A stretch of DNA of 64,000 nt, from the NCBI RefSeq assembly GCF_004116335.1, contig NZ_PDKN01000004.1, positions 62,001 through 126,000 on the forward strand. The letters run 5' to 3'. Positions within the stretch are counted from its first letter, which is position 1; each line of letters starts with the position of its first letter. This document shows, piece after piece, positions 12,231 through 44,236 of this stretch. The notes under the pieces were generated by a model. It was not told where the DNA came from, searched no databases, and saw nothing but the letters and a program-made list of their open reading frames with translations. The position numbers and the translations under genes are program-made. This DNA comes from Candidatus Marinarcus aquaticus. GTDB lineage: Bacteria; Campylobacterota; Campylobacteria; Campylobacterales; Arcobacteraceae.

Positions 12231-12242
12231 AGTTGTTCCTTC

Positions 12243-19172: not shown

Positions 19173-20240
19173 TTAGTTCTTTCCAATACATTGTAAGTCA
19201 GAGTATGCCGTTTCTAATCTCTTAATCATACTCTCTTGACCTGCTCGTAACCATTTTCTAGGGTCATAGTACCCTTTATTTGGTTTATCATCTCCATCAG
19301 GGTTTCCAATTTGGCCTTGTAAGTACCCTTTGTTTTTCGCTTCATACTCTCGTACTCCATCCCAGAATGCCCATTGAGTATCCGTATCAATGTTCATCTT
19401 AATCACACCATACTCAATCGCTTCTCGAATTTCAGAAAGCTCTGAACCTGATCCACCGTGGAATACAAAGTTCACTGGTTTTGCAGCGCATTGAAGTTTT
19501 TCTTGGATGAATTTTTGTGAGTTATCTAAAATCACCGGTGAGAGTTTCACGTTTCCTGGTTTATAGACCCCATGAACGTTTCCAAAACTGGCTGCAATCG
19601 TAAAGTGAGGACTGATTTGGCTTAACTCTTGGTGAGCATACGCCACTTCACTTGGTTGCGTATACAGAAGTGCATTATCCACATTGGTGTTATCCACACC
19701 ATCCTCTTCTCCACCAGTAATACCCAATTCAATTTCTATCATCATATCAATTTCTGACATGGTTCTAAAATACTCTACACACGTAGCAATGTTCTCTTCA
19801 AGTGACTCTTCACTTAAATCCAACATGTGTGAAGTATAAAGAGGTCGTCCTGTTCTTTGAAAGTGATTTTTACCTGCAACAAGCAGACCATCAATCCAAG
19901 GCAAGAGTTTTCTGGCTGCGTGGTCTGTGTGTAAAATAACGGGGATACCATACGCTTCTGCCATGGTGTGAACATGCATCGCACCACTGATACCACCTAA
20001 AATGGCTGCATCATCACTTTTTAAACCTTTACCTGCAAAAAAACCTGCTCCGCCATTTGAAAACTGAATAATTACAGGTGATTTTGCTCTGTGAGCCGCT
20101 TCTAAAACCGCATTGGCTGAATCTGTTCCTACAACATTTACTGCTGGAATTGCAAATTGATTCTCTTTTGCATATTCAAACAATTTGTGTGCTTCACTCC
20201 CACTTAAAACACCCGGTTTAACAACGTCTAAGACTCCCAC
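19173..20240 (-). CDS. fba: Class II fructose-bisphosphate aldolase
   Basis: A 355-residue zinc aldolase for gluconeogenesis/glycolysis. Segments seen include IPAVNVVGTDSANAVLEAA, the zinc motif VILHTDHAA, NVHGVY, and FVFHGGSGS followed by GVIKMNIDTDTQWA. Length matches the E. coli-type class IIA enzymes. It lies 9 bp after the PEB4-like ppiC gene and is probably cotranscribed with it, as in several relatives. Confidence 0.95.
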   Translation of the reverse strand: MGVLDVVKPGVLSGSEAHKLFEYAKENQFAIPAVNVVGTDSANAVLEAAHRAKSPVIIQFSNGGAGFFAGKGLKSDDAAILGGISGAMHVHTMAEAYGIPVILHTDHAARKLLPWIDGLLVAGKNHFQRTGRPLYTSHMLDLSEESLEENIATCVEYFRTMSEIDMMIEIELGITGGEEDGVDNTNVDNALLYTQPSEVAYAHQELSQISPHFTIAASFGNVHGVYKPGNVKLSPVILDNSQKFIQEKLQCAAKPVNFVFHGGSGSELSEIREAIEYGVIKMNIDTDTQWAFWDGVREYEAKNKGYLQGQIGNPDGDDKPNKGYYDPRKWLRAGQESMIKRLETAYSDLQCIGKN

Positions 20241-20249
20241 TTTTACTCC

Positions 20250-21086
20250 TTACTTGATACTGATATTTGCTTTTTTTCTTAATTCAGAGACCACGTCTTT
20301 GATATTGTTTCTGAATTTCTCTTGGATTAATGCTTGTTTGATTTTTACTTTTACATCATCAAAAGAGAGTTTTTGTGCTGGTGTTTTATCTTCTAAATAG
20401 ATTACGTGATATCCAAATTGTGTTTTCACTGGAGATTTTGTGTACGCCCCTTTTTTCAATGCACTGGCTGCTTTTGAAAACTCAGGTACCATCTGTTTTG
20501 CTGAAAATTCACCTAAAGATCCACCATTTTTACCTGTTGGTCCTGTTGATTTACTTTTTGCTAACTCTGTGAATTTGGCCAATTTGTCTTTTGCACCATT
20601 AAGCTCTTTAATCACTGATTTTGCAGCCGCTTCGTCTTTTAAAAGAATGTGTCGCGCTTTGAGTTTTTCATCTGTTTTGAATTTCTCTTCGTTTTTTGTG
20701 TAATACTCTTTGATCTCTTTGTCTGATACGCTCACTTTTTTAAACTCTTCTTGCATCCAAATCTCTAAAGCCAAATCTTTTTTAATTTTCTCTAATGCCT
20801 CTTTAAAGGTTGCTTCTTTTTCAATGCCACTTGAAAGTGCTTTCTTAGTCAATAATTTTTTTTCAACCAATTGATTGATTACAGTCTCTTGTGTTTTTTC
20901 TGGCAGTGTGTCAAAATCAATTTTAGGGTTTCTTAAAACCACTGAAATATCATCTTTCGTGATATTTTCACCATCAACTGTCGCATATACATCTTTTGCG
21001 AGCAGACTTGTTGTCGTAAGTGCCAGTGTAGTCACCAGACTTAAAACCAATCTTTTTCCATTAAATACTCTGTTATTTGTTTGCAT
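20250..21086 (-). CDS. PEB4-like periplasmic peptidyl-prolyl cis-trans isomerase (parvulin/SurA family)
   Basis: A 278-residue secreted foldase. A signal peptide (about 1-30, ending LLAK) is followed by a SurA-N-like helical chaperone region, a parvulin domain (about 130-235; ARHILLKDE, GGSLGEF, PVKTQFGYHVIYLED) and a C-terminal helix. It corresponds to the PEB4/Cbf2 class of Campylobacterota, periplasmic chaperones for outer membrane proteins. A paralogue is encoded inside the nir cluster at 35720-36535. Confidence 0.88.
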   Translation of the reverse strand: MQTNNRVFNGKRLVLSLVTTLALTTTSLLAKDVYATVDGENITKDDISVVLRNPKIDFDTLPEKTQETVINQLVEKKLLTKKALSSGIEKEATFKEALEKIKKDLALEIWMQEEFKKVSVSDKEIKEYYTKNEEKFKTDEKLKARHILLKDEAAAKSVIKELNGAKDKLAKFTELAKSKSTGPTGKNGGSLGEFSAKQMVPEFSKAASALKKGAYTKSPVKTQFGYHVIYLEDKTPAQKLSFDDVKVKIKQALIQEKFRNNIKDVVSELRKKANISIK

Positions 21087-28587: not shown

Positions 28588-29589
28588 ATGAAATCACAAC
28601 GTATCAGTACCAAAATCAAAACTTTGGGCGTACTCTTTTTTATTCTTGTTGTGGCACTTATTGTCACTACAATTTATCTCAATCAAAAATCCAAACAAGA
28701 TGCTTTAATCATCAACATTGCAGGTAAAGAGAGAATGCTCTCTCAAAGAATTGCAAAAAATATTTTTTATACATACCATATAAAAAGTACCCAATTTACA
28801 GAATTAGAGAGTGCTGTGGATGAATTTATCTATGGATTAAATTCACTCAAAAATGGAAATCAATTGCTTGAAATTGATTCAGCACCCACACAAGCCATTG
28901 CCAAACAGTTTTACATCATTGATGTGATTTGGAATAACTATCTAAAAAACGTCAATGAGTTTAAACAAAACATGCTACAAAAAAGTTTTCAAAAAGCAGA
29001 ACACAATCTTGAGGTAGTTTATAACACCAACAATGCACTTCTTCAAGAGGTTGATACTTTGGTTTCATTATACACCAATCATGCACAAGGGAAAACCCAA
29101 TACATCATCTATTTTCAGTATGGTGCAGCTTTGGCATTGATAATATTGTTTATCTATGGCTTTTTTAAACTGCGAACCATTGAACTCAATGCAAAAAACT
29201 TTATTCAATCAACAAAACAACTGATTGATTCAGATGATGTGGAAGAGCTCAAACCTCTTCAAATCAATGCTGAAAGCGAAATTGAGGAAGTATCAGATAC
29301 GATCAACTGCTTTATCAATAAAATCAGCTCTGCTATGAATCACTCTGCGCAAGCAATTGAACAATCTAAACAAGCTTCACTGCAACTTGAAGAGATCACC
29401 GATGAATTTGATGAAATTTTAGATTCACTCAAAGACTCTGCAAGTATATCTAAACAGCTTAATATGAGTGAAGATATGGTGATTGAATCCACAGAAGAGT
29501 TGATGAACTCTACGCGAAGACTTGAAGAGCTAAAAGCGCAACTTGATCGTCTTAAAGAGGGGTGTAAAGAGGAACGTAAAAGTTCATAA
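28588..29589 (+). CDS. PilJ-type (NarX-like) sensor-domain membrane protein without output domain
   Basis: A 333-residue protein. TM1 (about 14-34) is followed by a periplasmic PilJ/NarX-type helical domain with the signature IAGKERMLSQRIAKN, then TM2 (about 180-200), a HAMP-like stretch and a C-terminal coiled coil. There is no kinase, MCP or GGDEF module. The P-box-like motif resembles the nitrate/nitrite-binding region of NarX/NarQ. It starts one base after the Crp/Fnr gene stop, with GGGAG as ribosome site, so the two are cotranscribed. Nitrate or nitrite sensing is an inference from this motif and the location. Confidence 0.75.
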   Translation: MKSQRISTKIKTLGVLFFILVVALIVTTIYLNQKSKQDALIINIAGKERMLSQRIAKNIFYTYHIKSTQFTELESAVDEFIYGLNSLKNGNQLLEIDSAPTQAIAKQFYIIDVIWNNYLKNVNEFKQNMLQKSFQKAEHNLEVVYNTNNALLQEVDTLVSLYTNHAQGKTQYIIYFQYGAALALIILFIYGFFKLRTIELNAKNFIQSTKQLIDSDDVEELKPLQINAESEIEEVSDTINCFINKISSAMNHSAQAIEQSKQASLQLEEITDEFDEILDSLKDSASISKQLNMSEDMVIESTEELMNSTRRLEELKAQLDRLKEGCKEERKSS

Positions 29590-29697
29590 GCACTCTTCGA
29601 CTCTTTTTTATCAATATACAACAGCTCTATTTTATACTCTCTTTAAGAATATTAAAAAATACTTAATTTTATATTTTATTTTTAAAACTTAAATTCA

Positions 29698-29739
29698 TTG
29701 ATATACATCAATCACATTTTTTTTGTTTTCCATTAAAAT
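29698..29739 (+). promoter_or_regulatory. FNR-type dyad and -10 of the nor/nir operon promoter
   Basis: TTGATATACATCAA (29698-29711) is a perfect TTGAT-N4-ATCAA dyad. TAAAAT (29734-29739) follows after exactly 22 bp, which puts the dyad centre near -41.5, the class II activator position. A strong GGAGGA ribosome site and the ATG at 29777 lie downstream. The same 22-bp spacing recurs at five other promoters in the window. Confidence 0.82.
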
Positions 29740-29776
29740 TATCTTCAGTTCAGTATAAATTCGGAGGATAGAAAAA

Positions 29777-30103
29777 ATGGATGCACCACTAATTATAAGA
29801 CCTGAGATTGCTCTTGAGAATTTTTTTCCTATTTTTTTGTCATCTGCATTTGTAATTATACTCGGGCTTTTTTACATTGGTATTTTTACTCTTGTAAAAA
29901 TCAATAAGTTAAAAAGCGGCTTTATGCCAGTGGCATACGTTTTTTGGCTTGCACAGACATTTTGTCTATATTACTTGGGAATTCTAATTCGAAGTGAAGC
30001 TTTTACACAATATGTGTTGATGGCCGCAATGTTTGGCTTTTTAGTCATTCCACATTTCATTTACTTTTTATTAGAAAAAACTCATGAAAATGTAGAACAT
30101 TAA
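29777..30103 (+). CDS. Small three-TM membrane protein heading the nor operon
   Basis: A 108-residue hydrophobic protein with three predicted TM segments (about 16-40, 48-70, 76-100) and a short charged C-terminus (EKTHENVEH). No cofactor motif is seen and the family is not recognised. It has its own good ribosome site and is the first gene behind the FNR-type promoter, 15 bp before norC. It could help assemble the NO reductase or respond to NO, but that is only context. Confidence 0.75.
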   Translation: MDAPLIIRPEIALENFFPIFLSSAFVIILGLFYIGIFTLVKINKLKSGFMPVAYVFWLAQTFCLYYLGILIRSEAFTQYVLMAAMFGFLVIPHFIYFLLEKTHENVEH

Positions 30104-30118
30104 ATAAAGGAGGTTGTA

Positions 30119-30778
30119 GTGACTGATAAAAAAGTTTCAGTTTGGGGCAGTAATCGTTTCTGGAAACGTTCTGCTGCATGGGTAACTGGATTTAGTGCTG
30201 CATTGTTGGTATGGCTTACGTTTGATACTATTCCACAAATCACGATGGGAACAGATGCTGATTTACAAAGTGGTATTACCAAAAGAGTACCAGCACCTAC
30301 AGTTATCAACTACAAAATCACTTATGAATTGAGTGATAAAAGAGGTCATGAGGTGCCAGTAATTGGTGAAAAAGAGAAGTTTTTTGGGCGAGATGACTAT
30401 TCTGAAGAAGAAGCCATGGAATTGGTGAACTTAGGGAAGTTAGCATCTCAAGCAAAGAACTGTATGGATTGCCATACACTATTAGGAAACGGTGCGTATT
30501 ATGCCCCTGATTTAACAAAAGCGTGGTTAGATCCAATGTGGGCAGATAATGGTTCATATCAAGCCATGACAGGTCAAGCGACAAAAGAGGATGCCATGGT
30601 AGAGTTTTTAACCAACCCTTCATCATATCCATCTCATGAAAGAATGATGCCAAATTTAGGTATCACTGAACATGAGGCAAAAGGATTGGTAGCATTCTTA
30701 AAACATATGTCTTCAATTGACACCAACGGTTTCCCTAGAAACTTTGGAAAGATAAAAGGAGCTGTAAATGGAAAATAG
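30119..30778 (+). CDS. norC: Nitric oxide reductase subunit C (cytochrome c)
   Basis: A 219-residue membrane-anchored cytochrome c of the cNOR complex. It has an N-terminal TM segment (about 18-38) and a periplasmic domain with one heme c site, CMDCH, followed by LLGNGAYYAPDL; the axial Met lies in the C-terminal part (RMMPNLG). It passes electrons to NorB. The start is GTG at 30119, with AGGAGG seven bases upstream. It overlaps norB by 11 bp. Confidence 0.95.
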   Translation: MTDKKVSVWGSNRFWKRSAAWVTGFSAALLVWLTFDTIPQITMGTDADLQSGITKRVPAPTVINYKITYELSDKRGHEVPVIGEKEKFFGRDDYSEEEAMELVNLGKLASQAKNCMDCHTLLGNGAYYAPDLTKAWLDPMWADNGSYQAMTGQATKEDAMVEFLTNPSSYPSHERMMPNLGITEHEAKGLVAFLKHMSSIDTNGFPRNFGKIKGAVNGK

Positions 30779-32186
30779 TTTAAAGTGGGAATCACAAAAA
30801 CTAGGTACATGGTATTTTACATTTGCTGCAGTAATCTTTGGAGCACAATTGCTTTTCGGTTTAATTGCAGCCATTCAATACCTTTACCCAAGCTTCTTAT
30901 TTGAAGTATTGGATTTTTCTATTGCCAGAATTGTACACATCAATGCCTTAGTTGTTTGGCTACTGTGTGCGATGATTGGTTCAGTGTACTATATCATGCC
31001 TGAAGAGACTGGAATTGAAACCGTCGGTGTGGGTATTGGAAAACTGTTGTTTGGTATTTTAGTTGCTGCTGTTACAGTGGTGGTGCTTGTTTATATTTTA
31101 ATTCAAGTAGGCCCTGCTGATCACTCAACATTATGGTTTATTACACAAGGACGAGAGTATATTGAAGCACCTATGTGGGCAGATATTGGAATCGTTGTAG
31201 TTGTACTTGGATTCTTAGCCAACGTATATTTAACATCCATCAAAGGTGAAAGAACAGGAATCATGACGGTTCTTATGGCAGACTTACTTGCATTAGCAGG
31301 TCTTTATCTTGCAGGTATGTTCTATACGGCAAATATCTCAATGGATCAATACTGGTGGTGGTGGGTTATCCACTTATGGGTAGAAGCTACTTGGGAAGTA
31401 TTTGTTGCTTGTTTAGCAGGTTATGGTTTAATTAAAACCATCGGTGCATCACGACAAATTGTTGAGATGTGGTTATGGATTGAAGTTGCAATGCTTTTTG
31501 GTTCTGGTATTTTAGGTATTGGACACCACTATTTCTGGATTGGTACGCCTGAGTACTGGTGGGAAATTGGTGCACTTTTCTCTGCTTTAGAACCTGTACC
31601 ATTGATTGGTATGTTTGTTCACGTTATTTATGACTGGGGAAAAGAGTCTGGTCATGCCGCAGCAGAAGGACACAAACATGAAATTTCAAACACACCTGCA
31701 TTCAGCTGGTTTGTTGTCAATACCTTTGGTAACTTTTTAGGTGCTGGGGTTTGGGGATTTATGCATACATTGCCACAAATCAACCTCTATACTCATGGTA
31801 CACAATGGCCTGCAGCACACGGTCACTTAGCGTTCTATGGTGCTTATGCAACCATCTTAATTGGTATGTTTTATATGGGAGTTCAAGGTTCAAATAATAT
31901 TAAATATTTACGAGCAACCTTCTCATCTAAAATGGCCATTACGTTAATTACTGGTGGTGTTTTAGGGATGACTGTAGCATTGACAATCTCCGCGTATGTT
32001 CAAACAATGATTGAAAGAGCTCAATGGGGTGCAACTTGGGTTGGTTACTTTGCCGCTCAAGAGAGTACTTGGATGACTCAAAGTTATGGATGGCGTTTAG
32101 CAATGGGTGTAGTCACCTTCATTGGTTTCTTATTCCTTGTTAAAGACCTTTTAAGTATCGGTAAAAATCCGAAACATGTTCGGTAA
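30768..32186 (+). CDS. norB: Nitric oxide reductase subunit B
   Basis: A 472-residue, about 12-TM heme-copper-oxidase-family protein reducing NO to N2O. Heme and FeB ligands appear as VHINALVVWL, HLWVEATWEVF, GIGHHYFWIG and the TM X region HGHLAFYGAY; the Glu-rich segment near ALEPVPLIG is typical of NorB. It lacks the N-terminal quinol-oxidising extension of qNOR, consistent with the separate NorC. AAGGAG precedes the ATG. Confidence 0.96.
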   Translation: MENSLKWESQKLGTWYFTFAAVIFGAQLLFGLIAAIQYLYPSFLFEVLDFSIARIVHINALVVWLLCAMIGSVYYIMPEETGIETVGVGIGKLLFGILVAAVTVVVLVYILIQVGPADHSTLWFITQGREYIEAPMWADIGIVVVVLGFLANVYLTSIKGERTGIMTVLMADLLALAGLYLAGMFYTANISMDQYWWWWVIHLWVEATWEVFVACLAGYGLIKTIGASRQIVEMWLWIEVAMLFGSGILGIGHHYFWIGTPEYWWEIGALFSALEPVPLIGMFVHVIYDWGKESGHAAAEGHKHEISNTPAFSWFVVNTFGNFLGAGVWGFMHTLPQINLYTHGTQWPAAHGHLAFYGAYATILIGMFYMGVQGSNNIKYLRATFSSKMAITLITGGVLGMTVALTISAYVQTMIERAQWGATWVGYFAAQESTWMTQSYGWRLAMGVVTFIGFLFLVKDLLSIGKNPKHVR

Positions 32187-32197
32187 AGGAGCAGACA

Positions 32198-32350
32198 ATG
32201 ATTGAAGCATTTACAGATGTGGTTCCAAGTTTCTTTGGAACACTGAATCAAGGACCAATGACTTTAACCATCTTTCTTCATACAGTAATTATACTTCCAA
32301 TGTTTTGGATTTATGCACAAGAAAAAAGAAGAATGGAAGAAGAGAATTGA
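32198..32350 (+). CDS. 50-residue single-TM protein between norB and nirS
   Basis: A short frame, ATG at 32198 to TGA at 32350, encodes 50 residues: an N-terminal amphipathic part, one TM helix (about 22-40, MTLTIFLHTVIILPMFWIYA) and a charged C-terminus (QEKRRMEEEN). AGGAG lies at good distance before the ATG, and the gene begins 11 bp after norB. Its size and topology recall small accessory subunits of heme-copper enzymes. The family is not recognised and function is unknown. Confidence 0.72.
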   Translation: MIEAFTDVVPSFFGTLNQGPMTLTIFLHTVIILPMFWIYAQEKRRMEEEN

Positions 32351-32364
32351 TGTAACCATACGAC

Positions 32365-32419
32365 ACGTACAGTAGCGGTTGGGGGACTTCTGCTGTACGT
32401 TTGATTATCACTATGATAA
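32365..32419 (+). promoter_or_regulatory. Intercistronic hairpin and short palindrome upstream of nirS
   Basis: ACGTACAG (32365-32372) pairs with CTGTACGT (32393-32400). Three more inner pairs, one of them G-U, give an 11-bp stem with a 14-base loop and only a weak T-run. A second inverted repeat, TTATCA-cta-TGATAA, lies at 32405-32419. This could be a partial terminator, an mRNA processing or stability element, or an operator for a nirS promoter. No 22-bp-spaced FNR-type dyad is seen here. Confidence 0.5.
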
Positions 32420-32445
32420 ACATAATTTTATATAAGGAGAAGAGT

Positions 32446-34095
32446 ATGAAATTATCGAAAATATTAAGTATTGCAACCATTGCTTGCATCGGTTTTGTAA
32501 GTCAAGCAACCGCAGGAGAAATCAAACTTTCTGATGCCGAGATGAAAAAAGCAACACAGGTCTATTTTGATAGATGTGCTGGTTGTCACGGTATGTTAAG
32601 AAAAGGTGCATTAGGTCCATCTTTAGAAGCAAGTAAATCCAAAGAGATGGGTACAGAGACACTTAAATATATCATCAACAATGGTACTCCTGGAGGAATG
32701 CCAGGATGGGGTAAAACTGGTGAGCTTACAGCTGCTGAAACAGAGCTAATGGCAAAATATATTCAAATTAAAGCACCTCAACCACCTGAAAAATCTATGG
32801 CGGATATGAAAAAAACCCACAAAATTTTAGTGCCTGTTAAAGACAGACCAAAATCACCTGAAGCTAAAAACTGGAAAGATTACTTTGCAGTTATCTTAAG
32901 AGATGTAGGTAAAATTGCAATTGTCGATGGTGTAACCAAAGACGTTGTTTCGGTTGTACCTTCTGGGTTCGCAACACACATTACAAGAACAGGTGCATCT
33001 GGACGATACATGTATGTTATTGGTCGAGATGGGAAAGCCTCTATGATTGACTTATGGATGAAAGAACCTAAAAACGTTGCAGAGATTCGTACGTGTAACG
33101 ATGCAAGAGCAATTGATACATCTAAACATCCTGACTATAAAGATAAATATGCGATTGTAGGTTGTTATTGGCCACCATCAATTGTTACTTTGGAAGCAGA
33201 TACATTAGAACCATTAAAAATTGTATCAACTGCAAGTTATACATATGATGAAAATGTATTTACAAGAGAAGCAAGAGTTGCTGCAATTATTGCTTCACAC
33301 GATAAACCTGAATGGGTTGTCAATATTAAAGAGACAGGTCAAGTTTGGTTATACGACTACTCTAATGTTATGAATCCAAAAATTACCATGGTAGAAGCTG
33401 AAAGATTTTTACACGATGGGGGTTGGGATTTATCAAAACGATACTTTATGACAGCAGCCAATGCTAAAAACATCATCTCTGTTATTGATACAAAAGAAGG
33501 AAAACTTGTTGCCAATATTCCTTCTCAAGGGAATAAACCTCACCCAGGTCGAGGGGTCAATGTTGATCATCCTAAATATGGACCAATTTGGGGTTCAGGA
33601 CACATCGGTTCAAATGATATTATCTTTATTGGAACGGATCCAGAAAAACACCCTAAAAATGCATGGAAAGTAGTTAAAAAAATTGCTTTACCTGGTGAAG
33701 GTGGAGGAAACTTATTTGTTAAGGGTCATCCAAACAGTCAATACATCTTTGCAGACAGACCGGTTAATCCAAACCGAGAGCTACAAACACAAATTTATGT
33801 GATTGACAGAGACTCATTAGAAGTAGTTAAAACCATCAAAATTCCTAAAAAATATCTTAAATCAGGAATGACTGAAGATGGTAAAGAAGTTAAAGCAAGA
33901 GGTCCAGTTCACTTTGAATTCAATGCAGATGGTTCAGAAGTATGGACAAGTATCTGGGGGAACAAACTTCAAGCCTCGCCAATCTTAGTATTTGATACAA
34001 AAACATTAAAACTTAAAAATGTAATTGATGACAAACGATTAATTACACCAACAGGTAAATTCAACGTAACAAATACAATGACAGATACATACTGA
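32446..34095 (+). CDS. nirS: Cytochrome cd1 nitrite reductase
   Basis: A 549-residue periplasmic enzyme reducing nitrite to NO. It has a signal peptide (about 1-23), a cytochrome c domain with CAGCH near residue 44, and an eight-bladed d1 propeller with family segments ATHITRTGASGRYMYVIGRD, HDGGWDLSKRYFMTAANAKN and PHPGRG. These carry the proximal His and the two distal active-site His. The frame is open further upstream, but the ATG at 32446 with AGGAG seven bases before it starts the signal peptide. A strong hairpin follows the gene. Confidence 0.97.
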   Translation: MKLSKILSIATIACIGFVSQATAGEIKLSDAEMKKATQVYFDRCAGCHGMLRKGALGPSLEASKSKEMGTETLKYIINNGTPGGMPGWGKTGELTAAETELMAKYIQIKAPQPPEKSMADMKKTHKILVPVKDRPKSPEAKNWKDYFAVILRDVGKIAIVDGVTKDVVSVVPSGFATHITRTGASGRYMYVIGRDGKASMIDLWMKEPKNVAEIRTCNDARAIDTSKHPDYKDKYAIVGCYWPPSIVTLEADTLEPLKIVSTASYTYDENVFTREARVAAIIASHDKPEWVVNIKETGQVWLYDYSNVMNPKITMVEAERFLHDGGWDLSKRYFMTAANAKNIISVIDTKEGKLVANIPSQGNKPHPGRGVNVDHPKYGPIWGSGHIGSNDIIFIGTDPEKHPKNAWKVVKKIALPGEGGGNLFVKGHPNSQYIFADRPVNPNRELQTQIYVIDRDSLEVVKTIKIPKKYLKSGMTEDGKEVKARGPVHFEFNADGSEVWTSIWGNKLQASPILVFDTKTLKLKNVIDDKRLITPTGKFNVTNTMTDTY

Positions 34096-34104
34096 TTTTT
34101 ATAC

Positions 34105-34133
34105 TGCCAAACCTTCGGGTTTGGCACTCTTTT
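34105..34133 (+). terminator. UUCG-tetraloop hairpin after nirS
   Basis: TGCCAAACC (34105-34113), loop TTCG, GGTTTGGCA (34118-34126) form a perfect 9-bp stem closed by C(UUCG)G, followed by CTCTTTT. It lies in the 50-bp gap between nirS and the nirN-like gene. It probably ends most nirS transcripts and stabilises their 3' end, with read-through supplying the heme d1 genes. Confidence 0.82.
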
Positions 34134-34145
34134 ACAGGAGCTTTT

Positions 34146-35723
34146 ATGCAACTTTTATTCACTTTTATATCACTGATAACTCTTTTTTTATGTAATGCCT
34201 TTGCATTAGATTCAGCAGCAGGCCATATGGTTGAAGCATTGCCTAAAAAAGAAGTTGGCAAAATACTGTATAACCAATATTGCGCTTCATGTCACCACAC
34301 ACAACGTATTGGACGAGAGGGGCCACCGCTTTTACCCAAATTTTTACGAAAATATCAAGAAAAAGATTTGGCACAAAAAATCAAAAATGGTTTTCCACAA
34401 ACACTCATGCCCAAGTTTGACTTTTTAAATCCATATGAACTCTTACAATTAGCGCGTTATATCAAATCTCCCATTGATACCCATATCGCATGGAATGCGT
34501 CCAATATGAGAGACTCCATCGTCTCATTTAATGATCCGTTGTCTCCATTAGCAATAAAAAACAAAGAGCAAATTCTTCCAGTAGTAGAGCGTGATGGCAA
34601 TAAAGTTTGGGTCATGGAAGATACAAGAATACTCTCAAAATTTCATTTAGATAATGTCCATGGTGGCATCAAATACACCATGGATGCCAACAACATCTAT
34701 GTCCCCACACGTGATGGTTTTGTACAACGTTACTCTTTAAAAACCGGTCAGCGAATGAATAAAGTACGTGCCTGTATCAACTTAAGAAATATCTCTTTAA
34801 GTCGTGATGGTTCTCATATTTTTGCAACGTGTTTGTTACCTGAACAGATGGTGGTTTTAGATGCAAAGAGTATGTTGCCTAAAAAAATTCAAAAACTTGA
34901 AGGAAAAATCTCTGCTTTGTATGAGTTCTATTCCAAAGACAAAGCCATATTCACTTTTAGAAACAAACCACTGCTTGCAATGGTGGACACTAAAACATTT
35001 GATATTACTTACAAAAAAATCAAAGAGCCCATTGAAGACTTTTTTATTGACCCATTTGAGGATTTTCTTATTGGTACCGCACGACGAGGCAACATCTTAA
35101 GCGTGTATGATTTAAATAAAAATGAATATGTTTTTGAACATGAAATGAAAGGGATGCCTCACCTCTTTTCTGCAACCTATTGGTACAATAATGGGGATTT
35201 CTATTTTGCAACACCGCATATCAAAAAACCTTATGTCACGGTTTGGAAAATGTATGATTGGACATTTATTAAAAAAGTCGATATACAAGGGGATGGTTTT
35301 TTTGTAAAAACCCACCCTTATACCCCTTATCTTTGGGCCGACAATGGCAGCGATAAATTAGTACTGATTGATAAAAATGACTTTTCTACTAAAACCATTA
35401 CCCCCAGAAAAAACCAACAATATATTCACACAGAATACAGTGGTGATGGGAAATATGCGTATTTGAGCATCTATGAAAGAGAGGGTGCTATTGTGATTTT
35501 GGACACCCAATCTTTAAAAGAATTGACTGCATATAAAGCCAACATGCCTGTAGGAAAATACAACTTTATCAATAAAAACAGAGTATTTTATCCTCGTTTA
35601 TTTGGAATGGATATCTTTAAACAACGCTGCAACAATACCCTACCTTGTCAACCAGAAAATCTCTCAAAATATGAGAAAAAAAGTCTGTTTGATTATCTTA
35701 AAAGTATGAAGGAAGGATCATGA
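34146..35723 (+). CDS. nirN: NirN-like protein: cytochrome c plus heme d1 propeller domain
   Basis: A 525-residue periplasmic protein with a signal peptide (about 1-21), an N-terminal cytochrome c domain (CASCH near residue 46), and a C-terminal eight-bladed propeller related to NirS/NirF (RDGNKVWVMED, DNVHGGIKYTMD, PTRDGFVQRYSL). NirN is the dihydro-heme d1 dehydrogenase that introduces the last double bond and hands heme d1 to NirS. It is clearly not a second NirS: propeller motifs are divergent and the active-site HDGG segment is missing. It overlaps the downstream ppiC gene by 4 bp. Confidence 0.82.
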   Translation: MQLLFTFISLITLFLCNAFALDSAAGHMVEALPKKEVGKILYNQYCASCHHTQRIGREGPPLLPKFLRKYQEKDLAQKIKNGFPQTLMPKFDFLNPYELLQLARYIKSPIDTHIAWNASNMRDSIVSFNDPLSPLAIKNKEQILPVVERDGNKVWVMEDTRILSKFHLDNVHGGIKYTMDANNIYVPTRDGFVQRYSLKTGQRMNKVRACINLRNISLSRDGSHIFATCLLPEQMVVLDAKSMLPKKIQKLEGKISALYEFYSKDKAIFTFRNKPLLAMVDTKTFDITYKKIKEPIEDFFIDPFEDFLIGTARRGNILSVYDLNKNEYVFEHEMKGMPHLFSATYWYNNGDFYFATPHIKKPYVTVWKMYDWTFIKKVDIQGDGFFVKTHPYTPYLWADNGSDKLVLIDKNDFSTKTITPRKNQQYIHTEYSGDGKYAYLSIYEREGAIVILDTQSLKELTAYKANMPVGKYNFINKNRVFYPRLFGMDIFKQRCNNTLPCQPENLSKYEKKSLFDYLKSMKEGS

Positions 35724-36535
35724 AAAATACTCTGTTATATTTGATTATTTTTACAGTTTATCTCAATGCAACCACTTTTGCTGTTGTCAACAATGAAAAA
35801 GTGACCATAGAGGACATCAATGCCATCATCAAATCACACGAGGATATCCCTGCTTTTTCAGCATTGAGTCCAAGAGAAAAAGAGCTTGTAATTGACCAAG
35901 CCATTGAGCAAAAACTCATTATACAGCATGCAAGAAAAACAAATATTCCACAACAAAAAGATTTTATAGACTCTTTAGAAGTGATTAAAAATCAACTTAT
36001 AAAAGAGTTTTGGTTCAAACAACAATTTCAAAACATCTCAGTGACCAAACAAGAGGTTCAAACATATTATAACGAACATCAAGCAAACTACAAACAAGAG
36101 TTTATGCTCAAAGCACGTCATATTATTGTCAAAAGTGAACAAAAAGCGCAACAGCTCATCAAAGAGTTGCAAAGTACACAAAAAGATGTTCAAAAACTCT
36201 TTATCGAATTAGCACAAAAACACTCTATTGGTCCAAGTGCTTCTAAAGGGGGTGATTTGGGTTGGTTTAAAAAAGGACAAATGCTGGATACTTTTTGGAA
36301 TAAAGCGAAACACCTCAAAGAAAAAAGCTTTACATTAACTCCGTTACAGACGCAATACGGATATCATATTATCTACTTGGATGCCAAACAACAAGATAAA
36401 ACACTCACACTAAAAGAGATTTATAGCACCATAGAACAAGAGGTTCAATTGCAAAAATTTCAACATTTGATCTCACAACAAATTCAACGTTTAAAAAAAG
36501 AGGCACATATTGAAGTGCAATATGATAATTTCTGA
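35720..36535 (+). CDS. Periplasmic PpiC/parvulin foldase embedded in the nir cluster
   Basis: A 271-residue secreted protein: signal peptide (about 1-17), helical SurA-like N-terminus and a parvulin domain (about 125-225; LKARHIIVKSE, GGDLGWFKKGQ, TPLQTQYGYHIIYLDA). It is a paralogue of the PEB4-like protein at 20250-21086, with the same architecture. It is translationally coupled to nirN (ATGA). A dedicated folding role for NirS, NirN or the small cytochrome in the periplasm is likely from position but unproven. Confidence 0.85.
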   Translation: MKNTLLYLIIFTVYLNATTFAVVNNEKVTIEDINAIIKSHEDIPAFSALSPREKELVIDQAIEQKLIIQHARKTNIPQQKDFIDSLEVIKNQLIKEFWFKQQFQNISVTKQEVQTYYNEHQANYKQEFMLKARHIIVKSEQKAQQLIKELQSTQKDVQKLFIELAQKHSIGPSASKGGDLGWFKKGQMLDTFWNKAKHLKEKSFTLTPLQTQYGYHIIYLDAKQQDKTLTLKEIYSTIEQEVQLQKFQHLISQQIQRLKKEAHIEVQYDNF

Positions 36536-36592
36536 TTTGAATCAAGAATATTCACTTTTCATTACGTTACACTTTTTCAAGAGGGGTTACCA

Positions 36593-36895
36593 ATGTATAA
36601 AAATTTTCTGATCCTTTTACTGTTTTTACACACGTCACTTTTAGCCAATGAGGGTGAAACGCTTTTTAAAACCTATTGTTGGGGGTGTCATCACCAAACT
36701 TCTATGGCATTTGGTCCCTCTTTTCAACAAATTGCAAACACACGTAACAGTGGAGAAATCATTGCACAAATTGTAGATCCAACCAACACAGCAATCACTT
36801 TGGGATATGAGCGCAGTGCCATGCCTGCATTTAACAGACTCACTTCAGAGCAACTGCAAGCACTCACCTCATATATTCAAAGTTTCAAGGACTAA
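36593..36895 (+). CDS. nirC: Small periplasmic cytochrome c (NirC/NirM-like)
   Basis: A 100-residue monoheme class I cytochrome c with a signal peptide (about 1-18), heme site CWGCH (near residue 29) and probable axial Met in SAMPAFNRLT. Its place between nirN-ppiC and nirJ matches NirC/NirM-type electron carriers that donate electrons to NirS or act in heme d1 maturation. Which of the two cannot be told. It ends 2 bp before nirJ. Confidence 0.82.
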   Translation: MYKNFLILLLFLHTSLLANEGETLFKTYCWGCHHQTSMAFGPSFQQIANTRNSGEIIAQIVDPTNTAITLGYERSAMPAFNRLTSEQLQALTSYIQSFKD

Positions 36896-36897
36896 AA

Positions 36898-38037
36898 ATG
36901 TTTCGACTTTCAAACTTAATCAAAACGACACTCGAAGAGAGTCCCAGTCGAACACTCAATGGTTCTATTATCATCTGGAATATGACCAATCGATGCAATC
37001 TTCTTTGTCATCATTGCTACAGTAAAGCCGATGCCAATGAGAAGGAGACACTCCATTTTGAACAGATAAAACAGACCATTCCTAAACTGAAAAAAGCCGG
37101 AATCAACTTTGTCATCTTCAGTGGGGGAGAACCACTTTTAAGAAAAGATATTTTTGATATTGCCCAATTGATGAAAGAGAATGATATTATCACATATCTC
37201 TCAACCAACGGGTTGTATATTACACCTAAAAATGTTCAACACATCATCGATACTTTTAATTACATTGGTATATCCATTGATGGAATTAAAGAAGTACATG
37301 ACTTTTTCAGAGCGCAAATAGGCTCTTATGAGAAAGCCATACAAGCCATAAAACTGATACAAACCTATGGGGGAAATGCAGGGATACGTTTTACCTTAAC
37401 CAAAGAGACACAAAGCAGTTTTTATGCAATGTTTGACTTGGTTGAAAAACTCAATGTCAATAAGTTCTATATCTCACACTTGGTCTACTCAGGAAGAGGC
37501 GAAGAAAACCTCAATATAGATATTTCAAAAGAGCGCCGACGAGAGTATGTTGAGTTCATTATTCAAAAAGCATTTGAGTATTATAAACAAGGAAAAAACA
37601 TTGACCTTGTTACAGGTAACATGGAGATGGATGCCATCATGTTATTGAAATATTTTGAGCAACACTATCCTGAACATACAAAGACACTTTATAAAAAACT
37701 CACCCAATGGGGAGGCAACAGTGCGGGTAACCGATTGGGAAATATGGACTGGTTGGGCAATGTAAAACCCGACCCTTTTTTCCCTTTTACCGTGGGAAAC
37801 TATTTAGAAAATGATTTTGAAAATATATGGAGCAACACCCAACAACCTTTATTGAAACGATTAAGAGAATACCCTCGACAAATTGAAGGAAGATGCAATG
37901 ACTGCAACTATCTTGAAATCTGCAATGGAGGTTCAAGAAGTCGTGCGTTTGCCATTTCAGGAGATTTATGGAGGGAAGATCCCTCTTGTTATTTAAGTGA
38001 ATCAGAGATAAGGAGAAGAGATAATGAAACCATTTAA
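36898..38037 (+). CDS. nirJ: Heme d1 biosynthesis radical SAM protein NirJ
   Basis: A 379-residue radical SAM enzyme. The N-terminal cluster motif is CNLLCHHCYS, followed by FSGGEPLLR. The C-terminal SPASM-like cysteines are in RCNDCNYLEICNGG and the later PSCY. NirJ removes the propionate groups of the didecarboxysiroheme ring to install the d1 oxo groups. It overlaps nirF by 14 bp. AAGGA precedes the ATG. Confidence 0.93.
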   Translation: MFRLSNLIKTTLEESPSRTLNGSIIIWNMTNRCNLLCHHCYSKADANEKETLHFEQIKQTIPKLKKAGINFVIFSGGEPLLRKDIFDIAQLMKENDIITYLSTNGLYITPKNVQHIIDTFNYIGISIDGIKEVHDFFRAQIGSYEKAIQAIKLIQTYGGNAGIRFTLTKETQSSFYAMFDLVEKLNVNKFYISHLVYSGRGEENLNIDISKERRREYVEFIIQKAFEYYKQGKNIDLVTGNMEMDAIMLLKYFEQHYPEHTKTLYKKLTQWGGNSAGNRLGNMDWLGNVKPDPFFPFTVGNYLENDFENIWSNTQQPLLKRLREYPRQIEGRCNDCNYLEICNGGSRSRAFAISGDLWREDPSCYLSESEIRRRDNETI

Positions 38038-39124
38038 AAGAGTTCTGTTGCTTATAAGCATGTTATTGACCTGTTTACAAGCTGAAAAGCTTTTTGTCGT
38101 ACAAAGAGAGGACTCCTCCCTTGCTGTCATTAACAATAACAAAGTAACACATACGGTCTCTCATATGAGAAATATGAACCACGGTATCGTAAAGTTTTAT
38201 AACAAAGATGCATATGTCATTTCAAGAGATGGCTATGTGATTCGTTTTAATCCTCAAACATATGAGGTCATCAATGAGTATAAAACCAGTAAAAGTGCCA
38301 TTGGTTTTGTCATCAATGAACATTATGTAGCAGTTGCTAATTATGATGATCAAAGTGTGGATATCTTGACACGTGATTTACAACCCATAAAAAAAATAAA
38401 AACAGGTTCAAGAAATGTAGGGATTAAAATCTATAAAGATTTTTTAATCTTCTCACAAATGGACAAAGACACCATTTCAGTATATGAAGACCAAACTCAT
38501 GGTACCAAAACCCCTCTTTTTACTCTGTATAAAGAGTTTCATGATGTGGGAGAACTTCCTTTTGATGCGATGATTCAAGATGAAAAGTACATTGCTGGAT
38601 TTTTCAAATCTCAGTATTTTGGTGTGGTCGATTTAAAAACCATGCGTTACAAAAAAATTGATATTTTTTTAAATAAAGAGCGTCAACGCGTACTAAAAGT
38701 ACCCCACTTTGGATTTTGGAGTTTAAGTCATAAACAGATTTTTATCCCCGCAGTGGGAGATAATAAAGTCCTTGTCTATGACAACGAATTTAACTTTATG
38801 AACAATATAACAACCAAAGGGTTACCGGTTTTCACCAGTTTAAGTCCCACTAAAGAGTATTTGGCCGTCACGTTTTCAGGTAAGGATTTTCCAACCATAC
38901 AGATCATTGATACGAAAACTCTGAAAATTATTCATACATTTGAATTTGATGGGAAAGTGCTGCATGTGCGTTGGTCAAATACCAAAAATGAACTTTATGT
39001 CTCGGTCAATGACAGCAACAAAGTAGCTGTTATCAATACCAAAAAATGGAGTGTTGAGCACAATATAACACAGGTAAAAAAGCCCTCTGGCATCTTTATC
39101 TATGAGGAGAAAAACAATGAGTAA
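38024..39124 (+). CDS. nirF: Heme d1 biosynthesis protein NirF
   Basis: A 366-residue periplasmic propeller protein related to the NirS d1 domain but without a cytochrome c domain. A signal peptide (about 1-20) is followed by the conserved HMRNMNHGIVKF and AYVISRDGYVIRFN segments, the latter with the family His. NirF acts late in heme d1 synthesis after NirJ. No lipobox Cys is seen, unlike some NirF lipoproteins. GGAGAAGAG precedes the ATG. Confidence 0.9.
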   Translation: MKPFKRVLLLISMLLTCLQAEKLFVVQREDSSLAVINNNKVTHTVSHMRNMNHGIVKFYNKDAYVISRDGYVIRFNPQTYEVINEYKTSKSAIGFVINEHYVAVANYDDQSVDILTRDLQPIKKIKTGSRNVGIKIYKDFLIFSQMDKDTISVYEDQTHGTKTPLFTLYKEFHDVGELPFDAMIQDEKYIAGFFKSQYFGVVDLKTMRYKKIDIFLNKERQRVLKVPHFGFWSLSHKQIFIPAVGDNKVLVYDNEFNFMNNITTKGLPVFTSLSPTKEYLAVTFSGKDFPTIQIIDTKTLKIIHTFEFDGKVLHVRWSNTKNELYVSVNDSNKVAVINTKKWSVEHNITQVKKPSGIFIYEEKNNE

Positions 39125-39851
39125 AGTCTATTTAACTGGGGCGGGTCCAGGAGACATTGAATTGATGACGATGAAAGCTGCACGAGTCATTAAAGAAGCG
39201 GATATTATCATCTATGACCGTTTGGCCAATCCTGAAATTCTCAAAATGGCCAAAGAGGGTGTTGTTTTGACGTATGTAGGTAAACAAGATGGAAAACACT
39301 CTGTCCCTCAAGATCAAATCAATGAAATTATTTACCAATCGGCTTTAAAGTATGAAACCGTTGTGCGTTTAAAAGGGGGAGATCCTTTTGTATTTGGTCG
39401 AGGAGGTGAAGAGGCACTCTACTTAAAACAAAGAGATGTCACCTATGAAATAATCCCCGGTATCACCTCAAGTATCAGTGTGCCCGCTTATGCAGGTATC
39501 CCTGTAACTCATCGCGGTATCACTACCTCGTTTAGAGTCGTAACGGGGCATGAGACACCCAATAAAAAGATTTCCCAATTGGAGTGGCAAACGTTTTTAA
39601 ATGATGAGACCATCATCTTTTTGATGGGGTATCACAATATTGATCTTATTAGCACGAAACTCTTGGAACTTGGGAAACGCAAAGATTACCCCTGTGCCGT
39701 CATTTCACAAGGAACTACCTCTGAACAAAAAGTGGTCGTAGGTACGTTGGAAAATATTGCCCAAAAATCTAAAGGATTACCAACGCCTGCCCTGATTGTA
39801 ATTGGCGAAGTGGTCAACTTAAAAGAACAAATTGAGTGGTTTCAAATCTAA
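39117..39851 (+). CDS. nirE: Uroporphyrinogen-III C-methyltransferase (SUMT)
   Basis: A 244-residue SAM-dependent methylase converting uroporphyrinogen III to precorrin-2, the entry to siroheme and heme d1. YLTGAGPGD at the N-terminus and GGDPFVFGRGGEE are CobA/NirE signatures. The ATG at 39117 has GAGGAG eight bases upstream and overlaps nirF by 8 bp; a start 15 bases earlier is less likely. CysG-type dehydrogenase activity is encoded separately at 41148-41735. Called nirE for its place in the nir operon; cobA is equally valid. Confidence 0.92.
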   Translation: MSKVYLTGAGPGDIELMTMKAARVIKEADIIIYDRLANPEILKMAKEGVVLTYVGKQDGKHSVPQDQINEIIYQSALKYETVVRLKGGDPFVFGRGGEEALYLKQRDVTYEIIPGITSSISVPAYAGIPVTHRGITTSFRVVTGHETPNKKISQLEWQTFLNDETIIFLMGYHNIDLISTKLLELGKRKDYPCAVISQGTTSEQKVVVGTLENIAQKSKGLPTPALIVIGEVVNLKEQIEWFQI

Positions 39852-39858
39852 ACCACTC
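39834..39858. terminator. Convergent hairpin between nirE and Crp/Fnr regulator 2
   Basis: GAGTGGTTT (39834-39842) pairs perfectly with AAACCACTC (39850-39858) around a 7-base loop overlapping the nirE stop codon. It lies between convergent genes, so it may end transcription from both sides. Confidence 0.55.
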
Positions 39859-39863
39859 AAACA

Positions 39864-40496
39864 CTACATAAAAAACTGTTTCAGACGCTCTTTATTGACG
39901 GTCTGTTTTCCCATATCTACAATACCTTCGTCTTTAAAGGTACGCAATATTCTTGAAAGTGTCTCAGGAGAGATATTTAAAATCTCTGCGGTGGAGACAT
40001 TTTTAGTACTAAAAAACTCTTCGGTGCGATCATGAATATACTTTGCTAAGCGTTCTTGAGAATCTAAAACCACATGCAAAGAGACCAGATTTTCTAAATT
40101 CTTAATCTTTTTTATAAGGGATCCTTGTATCTTAAAAGCCAAACTGGGATTATCATAAATGACATCTTTGAGTGAAGCAAAATCGATTTTAATCACCTCA
40201 ACATCGGTGAAGGCTTGAGCTGTTGCAGGGTATGGCATATTTTCAAAATTGGCCACCTCTGCAATGAGTTCATTAGAGTGAAAATATTTTAAAATAATCT
40301 CTTTATCATTAGAAGTCACTTTATATAACTTAATAATACCGCTTTGTAGCAGAAATAACTCTTTGGAATCATCACCCTCATAAAAAACAATGCTCTCCTT
40401 TGGATAAGAGACTTTACGTGTAAACTTCTCAATTTCACTGAGTGTTTCATCACATAAATCTTCAAACAAAAAGAACTCTTTAAGATAACCCGTCAT
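39864..40496 (-). CDS. Crp/Fnr-family transcriptional regulator 2
   Basis: A 210-residue Crp/Fnr protein with a beta-roll sensor domain (FLLQSGIIKLYKV) and HTH with recognition helix SPETLSRILRTFK (E--SR type). There is no Fe-S Cys cluster, as in DNR/NnrR-type NO-responsive regulators. It is closely similar along its length to regulator 3 (44233-44865), sharing NELIAE, YPATA, AFTDVEVIKIDF and SLIKKIKNLE. It has its own FNR-type dyad promoter, suggesting auto- or cross-regulation. Confidence 0.88.
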   Translation of the reverse strand: MTGYLKEFFLFEDLCDETLSEIEKFTRKVSYPKESIVFYEGDDSKELFLLQSGIIKLYKVTSNDKEIILKYFHSNELIAEVANFENMPYPATAQAFTDVEVIKIDFASLKDVIYDNPSLAFKIQGSLIKKIKNLENLVSLHVVLDSQERLAKYIHDRTEEFFSTKNVSTAEILNISPETLSRILRTFKDEGIVDMGKQTVNKERLKQFFM

Positions 40497-40534
40497 AGTG
40501 CACCTCGTTTAAGATTTTTTTAATCTGGAGATTC

Positions 40535-40576
40535 ATTGTACAATTTTGTAAGGTTGCTTTTCTTAACCTTAATCAA
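40535..40576 (-). promoter_or_regulatory. FNR-type dyad and -10 of the Crp/Fnr regulator 2 promoter
   Basis: On the minus strand TTGATTAAGGTTAA (40576-40563) is followed after 22 bp by TACAAT (40540-40535). The second half-site GTTAA deviates from ATCAA at two bases. The 290-bp gap 40497-40786 otherwise holds only a weak 61-codon frame. Confidence 0.68.
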
Positions 40577-40786
40577 GATTTTTTACTCTGCGATTATGAA
40601 AAGAAGCAATGGCATTGCGTGTATAAACTAACATAAAGATATTGATGGTCTGAATAGGAAAAGATAAAGAAGCAGAACAATTGATGCCCTGCTTTAAAAG
40701 TTTTTTCTGATGCAAAAATCGTTTTTCAATACACAACCCAGCGAGAAAAAACAAAGTAATAAAGAATTACTCTGTATTAATCAAAT

Positions 40787-42818: not shown

Positions 42819-43838
42819 ATGACAAGCATAAGCAGTAATCACTTGAAAAATGAAATTCTTTTTAGAATTCAAAAGAATTTTCCACTCGTAGCACAACCAT
42901 TTGATGCCATTGCCAAAGAGTTACATACTACAGAAGCTTTTGTTCTAAGCACTCTCCAAAAAGCTAAAAACGATAAGATTATACGACAAACTTCCGCCAT
43001 TTTTGACACAACAAGACTCGGTTATACTTCATCACTGGTTGCTTTTGAAATTGATCCAATGCAAATCGATCAAGCCATAGAGATATTGAACTCTCACCCA
43101 GGTATTTCTCATAATTATGAAAGAAATCACCAATTCAATATCTGGTTTACCATTGCCGTTGCTCCAGACTCATTATTGGGATTAAACAAAACCATTGAAC
43201 TTTTAGCTCAATTGACACATACAAAAAACCATATTATATTGCCCACACTAAAACTCTATAAAATAGCGGTTAAACTCAATACCACTCACCGTAAAGAGAC
43301 CAAAGAGAAGATTAAAGCAAAAAAATTTAAAGCGTTGACACTCACAGAAGAGCATTTTCGTCTCATTAAACTTTTGCAACACAATATTGAATTTGTATCA
43401 GAACCTTTTGCACATATTACTCAATATTTAAACATCAGTTATCTCCAACTCTTTGAGATGATTGAAGAACTTCAAGAAGCAGGGGTCATGCGACGATATG
43501 CTTCCATTTTAAACCATCGAAAAGCAGGTTTTAATGCCAACGCTATGGTGGTTTGGGACATCAATGAAGAGCAAGCCGAAGAGATTGGTAAAGAGGTTGC
43601 CAGTTTTAGCTCCGTAAGTCATTGCTACTTACGTCCTAAATATGACAATTGGCAATACAATCTCTTTTCTATGATTCATGGGAAAAGCCACGAAGAGACG
43701 CAAAGTGTCATCGACCAAATAAAAAAGCGCATTACCCATAATGGTTATATGCCCTTATACTCTTCACGAGAGTTTAAAAAAGTGCGCATTTGCTACTTCA
43801 GCGACGATTTTATGCAGTGGGAACTCAACCATATCTAA
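42819..43838 (+). CDS. nirDL: Fused NirDL-type siroheme decarboxylase (Lrp/AsnC-like)
   Basis: A 339-residue protein made of two AsnC/Lrp-like halves. Each has an HTH-like N-terminus and an AsnC-type domain; the key segments are SHNYERNHQFNIWFT in the first half and SHCYLRPKYDNWQYNLFSMIHG in the second. This is the hallmark of NirD/L/G/H and AhbA/B siroheme decarboxylases, which act as enzymes rather than regulators. It turns siroheme into 12,18-didecarboxysiroheme for NirJ. Here one fused chain seems to supply both subunits, as in organisms with NirDL. Confidence 0.9.
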   Translation: MTSISSNHLKNEILFRIQKNFPLVAQPFDAIAKELHTTEAFVLSTLQKAKNDKIIRQTSAIFDTTRLGYTSSLVAFEIDPMQIDQAIEILNSHPGISHNYERNHQFNIWFTIAVAPDSLLGLNKTIELLAQLTHTKNHIILPTLKLYKIAVKLNTTHRKETKEKIKAKKFKALTLTEEHFRLIKLLQHNIEFVSEPFAHITQYLNISYLQLFEMIEELQEAGVMRRYASILNHRKAGFNANAMVVWDINEEQAEEIGKEVASFSSVSHCYLRPKYDNWQYNLFSMIHGKSHEETQSVIDQIKKRITHNGYMPLYSSREFKKVRICYFSDDFMQWELNHI

Positions 43839-43849: not shown

Positions 43850-44236
43850 ATGAAACTATTTTTTGAACTCGAAGCCGCTTATATTGTAATCGGTATTTTT
43901 ATTTTAGCTGTAACGGCTTTTGTCACGACTCGTCCATTTGTAGGCCGAAATGCTTTTAAGATTGGTTTTCCAGGAGTTTTTCTTATTTTAACATTTTTTA
44001 TCATTGCACACTATGTTGTCACCACCAATCGAATGAATGACGTAGAAACACGCTTTATAGACCATAAACCGGTCATTTGTGAAAATCGCGTGCAACGTAA
44101 AGTCAATCCTTCTGTGATTATCAGTCAAGCACAAGGGTGGAGTTTAAACGAGCACATCTTTACCAACCCTCAATACAACAGAGGGTTTCATACTGCTCGC
44201 TGTTTAGAGCTGTTTAATGAGGAGTATCCCGATTAA
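43850..44236 (+). CDS. Hypothetical two-TM membrane protein downstream of nirDL
   Basis: A 128-residue protein with TM segments at about 10-30 and 38-58, then a soluble C-terminal domain with two Cys (Cys77 and Cys118) that could pair if periplasmic. AAGGAA precedes the ATG at 43850, 12 bp after nirDL, so it is in the same FNR-type transcript. No family is recognised. It is a candidate denitrification accessory protein. It overlaps the convergent regulator 3 gene by 4 bp. Confidence 0.75.
   Translation: MKLFFELEAAYIVIGIFILAVTAFVTTRPFVGRNAFKIGFPGVFLILTFFIIAHYVVTTNRMNDVETRFIDHKPVICENRVQRKVNPSVIISQAQGWSLNEHIFTNPQYNRGFHTARCLELFNEEYPD

Follow-up and report, generated by a model that had tools for sequence, protein, structure and literature searches.

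The periplasmic folding of apo-NirS and its loading with haem c and haem d1 are only partly understood. In Pseudomonas aeruginosa, the maturation of NirS involves transient interactions among NirS, NirN, and NirF, and a 2013 paper stated that nothing was then known about haem d1 insertion (PMC3694632). The P. aeruginosa nir operon has nirS, nirC, nirF, nirJ, nirE, and nirN in common with the locus studied here, and the accessible portions of its descriptions name no parvulin gene (PMC3694632, PMC7137109). The present locus lies in a stretch of 64,000 nucleotides (nt) from Candidatus Marinarcus aquaticus (Arcobacteraceae; contig NZ_PDKN01000004.1, positions 62,001 to 126,000), hereafter referred to as the window, and contains a gene for a PpiC-type parvulin (ppiC) between nirN and nirC. 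Based on its conserved position and its co-occurrence with NirS, ppiC is an accessory gene of the nir/haem d1 cluster within Arcobacteraceae. We propose, with moderate confidence, that its product acts in the periplasm as an accessory foldase of the Nir cytochromes, mainly NirS.

Parvulin genes have previously been linked to another respiratory operon. In denitrifying Proteobacteria, with Epsilonproteobacteria excluded, a parvulin gene was present in 52.3% of narGHI operons, and co-regulation was among the explanations offered (PMC4464133). The operon link of a parvulin gene with nar was also examined in Methylophaga (PMC4689864), and a figure legend in a further paper lists ppiC (PMC6446978). 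The parvulin gene beside narGHI in Pseudomonas stutzeri RCH2 had a fitness value of -0.3 in the denitrifying control and -2.6 with chromate (PMC5554334). Compared by description rather than sequence, these genes resemble the present ppiC as parvulin genes within a respiratory operon for a nitrogen oxide. However, their partner is the membrane-bound nitrate reductase, whereas the present gene belongs to a haem d1 block, neighbours nirN and nirC, and has no narGHI linkage. In Gallionella, the Uet multihaem cytochrome pathway includes the peptidylprolyl isomerase UetB (PMC10734462), likewise an isomerase whose gene is set with c-type cytochrome genes, in another pathway; this likeness is one of description, not of sequence or isomerase type. 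Parvulins in respiratory (nar) operons are therefore known, and the nir/haem d1 partner, found in one family in our samples, is new. Among the literature matches listed, no title or visible abstract placed a parvulin or prolyl isomerase in a nir cluster, with most subscription journals outside the scope.

The distribution of the gene was examined in a family sample of 104 Arcobacteraceae genomes. Matches to the window PpiC split cleanly, with 14 genomes scoring at least 184 bits and the next match scoring 175.4 bits. This high-scoring type was present in 13 of the 15 genomes that encode a full-length classical NirS and in one of the 88 remaining genomes (G413, which has a nirN-like gene). In genome G409 (87% complete), which has nor genes, nirS is cut by the end of a contig just before the ppiC site, and no match of the high-scoring type was found. 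The co-occurrence of NirS and the parvulin, uncorrected for relatedness, gave a Fisher p value of 1.2e-13 when G409 was counted as lacking NirS and 6.2e-13 when it was counted as a NirS genome without the gene. With G409 set apart, genus g2 had the parvulin in 7/7 genomes with NirS and 0/23 without. Eleven of the 14 copies sit between nirN (or a nirN remnant) and nirC. These 11 genomes represent four genera, and the concern that the linkage was peculiar to a single genome, raised by the initial annotation, does not hold.

Outside this family, the gene was not found in the samples surveyed. In a class sample of 397 genomes, classical NirS (PF02239 score above 380 bits) was encoded by 23 genomes, 11 in Arcobacteraceae and 12 outside; ppiC stood between nirN and nirC in 8 of the former clusters and was present in none of the latter (0/12). 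It was also absent from all 52 of the retrieved clusters in which the cd1 protein is NirS-like but divergent, which include G364:C11, with a NirS of intermediate score; most of the 52 also carry nor and haem d1 genes. We further inspected the best 80 of 584 named NirS loci, which came from Aquificota, Chloroflexota, Planctomycetota, Pseudomonadota, others, and some Campylobacterota. A parvulin open reading frame (ORF) was present in four, all of them Arcobacteraceae already counted, and in none of the other 76, 56 of which extend 5 kb or more downstream of nirS. In a whole-genome search of 28 of 29 selected genomes (all but L141), no score outside Campylobacterota exceeded 148 bits, while the nir type scored at least 405 bits and one member from genus g7 scored 268 bits. 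The nir-linked parvulin is confined to Arcobacteraceae in these samples. We rejected ppiC as a general component of nir clusters on the results for the classical clusters outside the family and the divergent clusters; all three surveys fit the earlier remark that it is not standard in described nir clusters.

Two other chaperone-type genes were noted at these loci. One of the 52 divergent clusters (L058:7716-8552) carries, on the opposite strand after nirF, a gene for a Cj1289/SalC-like SurA-type chaperone of 278 amino acids (aa); the PEB4-based models used here would not reliably detect others of this type elsewhere. Locus L029 has a 93-aa parvulin at another cd1-like gene.

In the window, the gene order is norC-norB-nirS-nirN-ppiC-nirC-nirJ-nirF-nirE, and the features are as follows.

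35720-36535, plus strand: ppiC, nir-linked PpiC parvulin gene, 271 codons, frame unbroken
35720-35723, plus strand: ATGA shared by the nirN stop and ppiC start codons, a 4-nt overlap (gap of -4)
30119-32186, plus strand: norC and norB, upstream of nirS, named by position
32446-34095, plus strand: nirS, classical cytochrome cd1 nitrite reductase, 549 aa when counted from the ATG at 32446 (start of the listed ORF, 32401)
34105-34126, plus strand: stem-loop in the nirS-nirN spacer, 9 pairs, with a terminator-like pattern
34146-35723, plus strand: nirN, cytochrome c domain and d1-type propeller, by family models
36593-36895, plus strand: nirC, small c-type cytochrome, by family models and position
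36898-38037, plus strand: nirJ, radical S-adenosylmethionine protein, NirJ model 401 bits (under the equivalog cut-off of 515)
38024-39124, plus strand: nirF, propeller, by family models and position
39102-39851, plus strand: nirE, uroporphyrinogen-III C-methyltransferase, by family models
42819-43838, plus strand: fused siroheme decarboxylase of the NirDL/AhbAB type, by family models
20250-21086, minus strand: housekeeping parvulin of the PEB4 type, used as the paralogue for comparison and placed within the PEB4 portion of the tree

The ppiC gene reported by the initial annotation is real: its intact ORF encodes a product matching PF00639 with 61.5 bits (cut-off 21.7) in a single stretch at residues 138-221, with Rotamase_2 and Rotamase_3 also above their cut-offs. 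The neighbours nirS, nirN, nirC, nirJ, nirF, and nirE were also confirmed. The top PDB match of the window NirS was a cytochrome cd1 nitrite reductase (E 2.2e-177). The two genes upstream of nirS are presumably norC and norB, judging by their position. By PF00639, the genome has three parvulins, namely, the nir-linked protein, the PEB4-like protein, and a short protein encoded on a different contig. A gap of 9 nt separates the PEB4-like gene from one that, by eye, resembles class II fructose-bisphosphate aldolase (19173-21086).

The spacing from nirN to ppiC was -4 to +14 nt in 11/11 genomes in which both genes are adjacent, and this tightness indicates an arrangement that exceeds chance. Translational coupling to nirN, as claimed earlier, is compatible with the ATGA overlap in the window; however, this overlap is absent from the other ten genomes, in which the gap is -1 nt (two genomes) or 8-14 nt (eight genomes).

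On the plus strand of 29500-40600, the first-listed terminator-like pattern was the stem-loop between nirS and nirN, and the pattern scan of the window found none on this strand from the nirN start to nirJ. Among the short nirS-nirN spacers of classical clusters, 20/24 had stem-loops of -13 kcal/mol or lower (e.g., L007, L010, and L023; no shuffled control), and in the remaining four, the called nirN start leaves 24 nt only. Promoter-like matches, including one at 34078-34105 and two weaker ones within ppiC, were given no weight; the region had 23, fewer than its shuffles (38.8). Since the stem-loop separates nirS from nirN, the co-transcription of ppiC with nirS is not assured. The position of ppiC beyond it, among the accessory genes, suggests that PpiC may be made in a smaller amount than NirS.

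The closest described protein is PEB4, also called cell-binding factor 2 (Campylobacter jejuni Cj0596 and Helicobacter pylori HP0175). C. jejuni PEB4 is an active peptidylprolyl isomerase (PPIase) and holdase with a proposed role in the delivery of outer-membrane proteins (PMC5368265). An AlphaFold2 model of the nir PpiC (predicted local distance difference test score 92.5, predicted template modelling score 0.69) was nearest to the solved structures of C. jejuni PEB4 (3rfw, Z 20.4, root-mean-square deviation 7.0 over 250 residues) and HP0175 (5ez1, Z 20.2); the template modelling score against 3rfw was 0.52. The high deviation from 3rfw suggests that parts are placed differently. In this model, the nir PpiC has the PEB4 fold over nearly the whole protein, with a single parvulin domain flanked by N- and C-terminal helical parts that together form a helical lobe. 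The predicted layout is an N-terminus that is hydrophobic and resembles a signal peptide when judged by eye, a helical chaperone lobe, a PPIase domain at approximately 128-226, and a long C-terminal helix at 231-261.

We aligned 14 clade members (defined below) with 33 PEB4 sequences. H134, F192, and H216 were kept in 47/47 rows and M188 in 45/47; we take these four to be PPIase active-site residues, which are the same in PEB4. In contrast, W193, next to F192, was present in 14/14 clade members and 0/33 PEB4 rows, and D221 in 14/14 and 2/33, respectively. The nir parvulin also differs from PEB4 in forming a separate clade and in lying within the nir cluster, whereas the PEB4 gene of the window is elsewhere. 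The Cys of the short parvulin of this genome corresponds to Gly in both the nir PpiC and the PEB4 of the window.

Three other identities were considered and set aside. NifM is the dedicated, cytoplasmic parvulin of nitrogenase maturation and is similar in being a PpiC-type protein tied to one metalloenzyme; however, TIGR02933 gave 59.2 bits, far under the cut-off of 168.2. SurA was rejected because there is a single Rotamase stretch instead of two parvulin domains, and the SurA model gave 35 bits against a cut-off of 394. No solved Cj1289 (SalC) chain appeared among 25 sequence matches, an absence that is not proof.

In an unrooted tree, the nir parvulins grouped with three proteins of genus g7 in one clade against all 33 PEB4 rows (100/99). 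The initial annotation regarded ppiC as a paralogue of the PEB4-like gene of the window. That gene exists and a comparison of the two proteins gives 160 bits, but the separate clade does not support a recent copy of the local PEB4 as a simple picture. When an outgroup was included, the clade was placed among PEB4s from other families and not among the Arcobacteraceae ones (96/95), in the same group as three long-branched outgroup rows, and grouping with the Arcobacteraceae PEB4s was not rejected by the approximately unbiased test (p 0.06). The gene may have originated by old duplication or by transfer.

Two genomes, G241 and G390, keep nirS-nirN-nirC-nirJ-nirF-nirE without ppiC. In a tree of six nir/nor proteins (a quick method with SH-aLRT support only), they were nested beside the ppiC-bearing G303. 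Their nirN-nirC spacers (320 and 303 nt) align with the 322-nt ppiC-nirC spacer of G303, and tblastn found no ppiC remnant in them (best E about 1), which indicates that ppiC was lost without trace. The simplest account is one gain in the classical nir cluster of the family and one clean loss. The losses beside intact nirS-nirN indicate that ppiC is accessory and dispensable.

The dN/dS values of ppiC were 0.11-0.27 in six pairs, exceeding those of nirS (0.08-0.13) in 6/6, which indicates purifying selection that is looser than that on nirS. The family sample contains one other genome of the window genome's genus, G203 (UBA4036); identities with it were 41% for PpiC, 61% for NirC, 76% for PEB4, 78% for NirN, and 86% for NirS. 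In five comparisons with the window, ppiC showed the lowest conservation in the cluster (40-43% identity). In other pairs, it was level with nirC or better: 76% vs 75% for nirC in L004-L007, and 65% vs 60% for nirC and 58% for nirF in L023-L025.

Variation at nirN bears on the clients. In two Aliarcobacter metagenome-assembled genomes (MAGs; G402 and G403), ppiC is intact, but only the cytochrome c domain of nirN is left, as a remnant between nirS and ppiC.

L084, 1773-2105: nirN remnant, 110 aa
L085, 4585-4965: nirN remnant, 126 aa

These truncations disfavour NirN as the sole client, with the caution that both genomes are MAGs, and point to NirS or cytochrome domains rather than the NirN propeller. 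In genus g7, the clade gene has moved away from nirS, lying 3 kb after nirN in G413 and on another contig in G380. In both genomes, it shares a 4-nt overlap with a cytochrome gene that encodes five CXXCH motifs; G414 has the clade gene without this partner, such that the pairing is seen in 2/3 g7 genomes. This suggests that c-type cytochromes, and not propellers, may be the common factor. A pentahaem cytochrome c (approximately 370 aa) directly follows divergent nirS in 17/52 divergent clusters (L030, L031, L032, L034, L045, L046, L049, L054, L057, L063, L069, L072-L074, and L077-L079) and classical nirS in 0/22 clusters, the window excluded. Since relatives of this cytochrome are also found elsewhere, its tie to nir is suggestive only.

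Several other features of these clusters were observed. The one divergent cd1 protein tested (L033:9136-10767) matched structure 6rtd with 159 bits and NirS with 140 bits; 6rtd is entered as 'Cytochrome c', and we take it to be NirN. Divergent Campylobacterota clusters like L033 have no second gene labelled nirN. In the g7 locus L090, an acetolactate-decarboxylase-like ORF (PF03306, 242 aa) lies between nirS and nirN (12704-13432). Between nirN and the pentahaem-ppiC pair, L087 carries an Eco57I-type methylase gene together with an ORF of 172 aa that has no Pfam match (11188-12940), and in L090, nirN is followed by ORFs of similar size (417 and 176 aa).

We propose that a parvulin made with the Nir proteins most likely helps them to fold or to stay open for the haem c and haem d1 steps. 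A putatively secreted PEB4-fold parvulin, with a prolyl isomerase and a holdase lobe, may have entered the nir cluster in an ancestral member of Arcobacteraceae. Judging from gene order, spacing, and the stem-loop, PpiC would be made with NirN, and read-through past the stem-loop would give less of it than of NirS. Exported PpiC would bind apo-NirS soon after its secretion, and perhaps also NirN, NirC, and NirF, keep these clients folding-competent, and speed prolyl isomerisation during haem c attachment and haem d1 loading. It would then leave, and the two natural losses suggest that the housekeeping PEB4 could substitute when PpiC is absent. A foldase travelling with nirS in one family is a concrete extra candidate component of NirS maturation, and the two natural gene losses and two nirN truncations offer ready-made comparisons. 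The initial annotation had envisaged a dedicated foldase for the propeller proteins. Recurrent linkage, co-occurrence with NirS, purifying selection, and a foldase-type predicted structure agree with a dedicated foldase, but the NirN propeller is disfavoured as the sole client, two genomes dispense with ppiC, and the g7 partner is a cytochrome.

A number of results weigh against a foldase serving chiefly NirS. G241 and G390 retain the cluster without ppiC, and the other lineages surveyed manage without a nir-linked parvulin. PpiC diverges faster than NirS and NirN, with higher dN/dS than nirS in every pair. The stem-loop stands between nirS and nirN-ppiC, and the g7 member has left nirS. The co-occurrence could stem from inheritance as one gene block. 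Moreover, the near-zero control cost in RCH2 indicates that the effect of a comparable gene can be mild.

Alternatively, a general periplasmic chaperone under denitrification control would serve the envelope at large, such as outer-membrane proteins or proteins damaged by nitric oxide, and would be in the nir cluster for co-expression only. This is rather unlikely because the gene tracks classical NirS and not denitrification, being absent from 52 divergent clusters that mostly carry nor and haem d1 genes, and because its place inside the cytochrome block was kept in 11 genomes; however, it fits the PEB4 fold and the outer-membrane role proposed for PEB4 (PMC5368265), the co-regulation offered as one explanation for the narGHI-operon parvulins (PMC4464133), and the nar-linked parvulin of RCH2, which matters under chromate and not in control growth (PMC5554334). 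A mere passenger, which landed in the nir operon and was kept because it is harmless, would account for the fast divergence (41% identity within the genus) and the clean loss. Nevertheless, with dN/dS of 0.11-0.27, conserved active-site residues, and retention in 13/15 genomes with full-length classical NirS against near absence elsewhere in the family, we consider it highly unlikely.

The clients may alternatively be c-type cytochromes awaiting haem (NirS, NirN, NirC, and the g7 pentahaem protein), with neither the propellers nor haem d1 loading involved. The 4-nt overlap with the five-CXXCH gene in two g7 genomes suggests such clients, although G414 lacks this pairing; similarly, pentahaem relatives directly follow divergent nirS in 17/52 clusters, but these 17 clusters have no such parvulin. 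The cytochrome c domain is the piece of nirN left in the two MAGs, and UetB provides an isomerase in a multihaem cytochrome pathway (PMC10734462). We regard this restricted set of clients as unlikely. The broader proposal that the whole clade specialises in folding the c-type apocytochromes of nitrite respiration, and is paired with NirS/NirN/NirC or, in one genus, with the pentahaem cytochrome, is doubtful. If true, it would add a dedicated periplasmic chaperone step to cytochrome cd1 assembly, of which we found no description in the literature searched.

Small ORFs were also noted around the nir and nor genes. A hydrophobic micro-protein of 61 aa is encoded antisense within the nir cluster of some genomes (L019:9794-9976; also L022, L025, L046, L047, L062, L064, and others). 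Its tblastn relatives (E <=0.01) comprise 38 loci including itself, none in the window and most near Campylobacterota nor/nir genes. The window has two small ORFs of 108 and 128 aa without a Pfam match (29777-30103 and 43850-44236), relatives of which adjoin norC, and nirDL or nor, in many Campylobacterota clusters.

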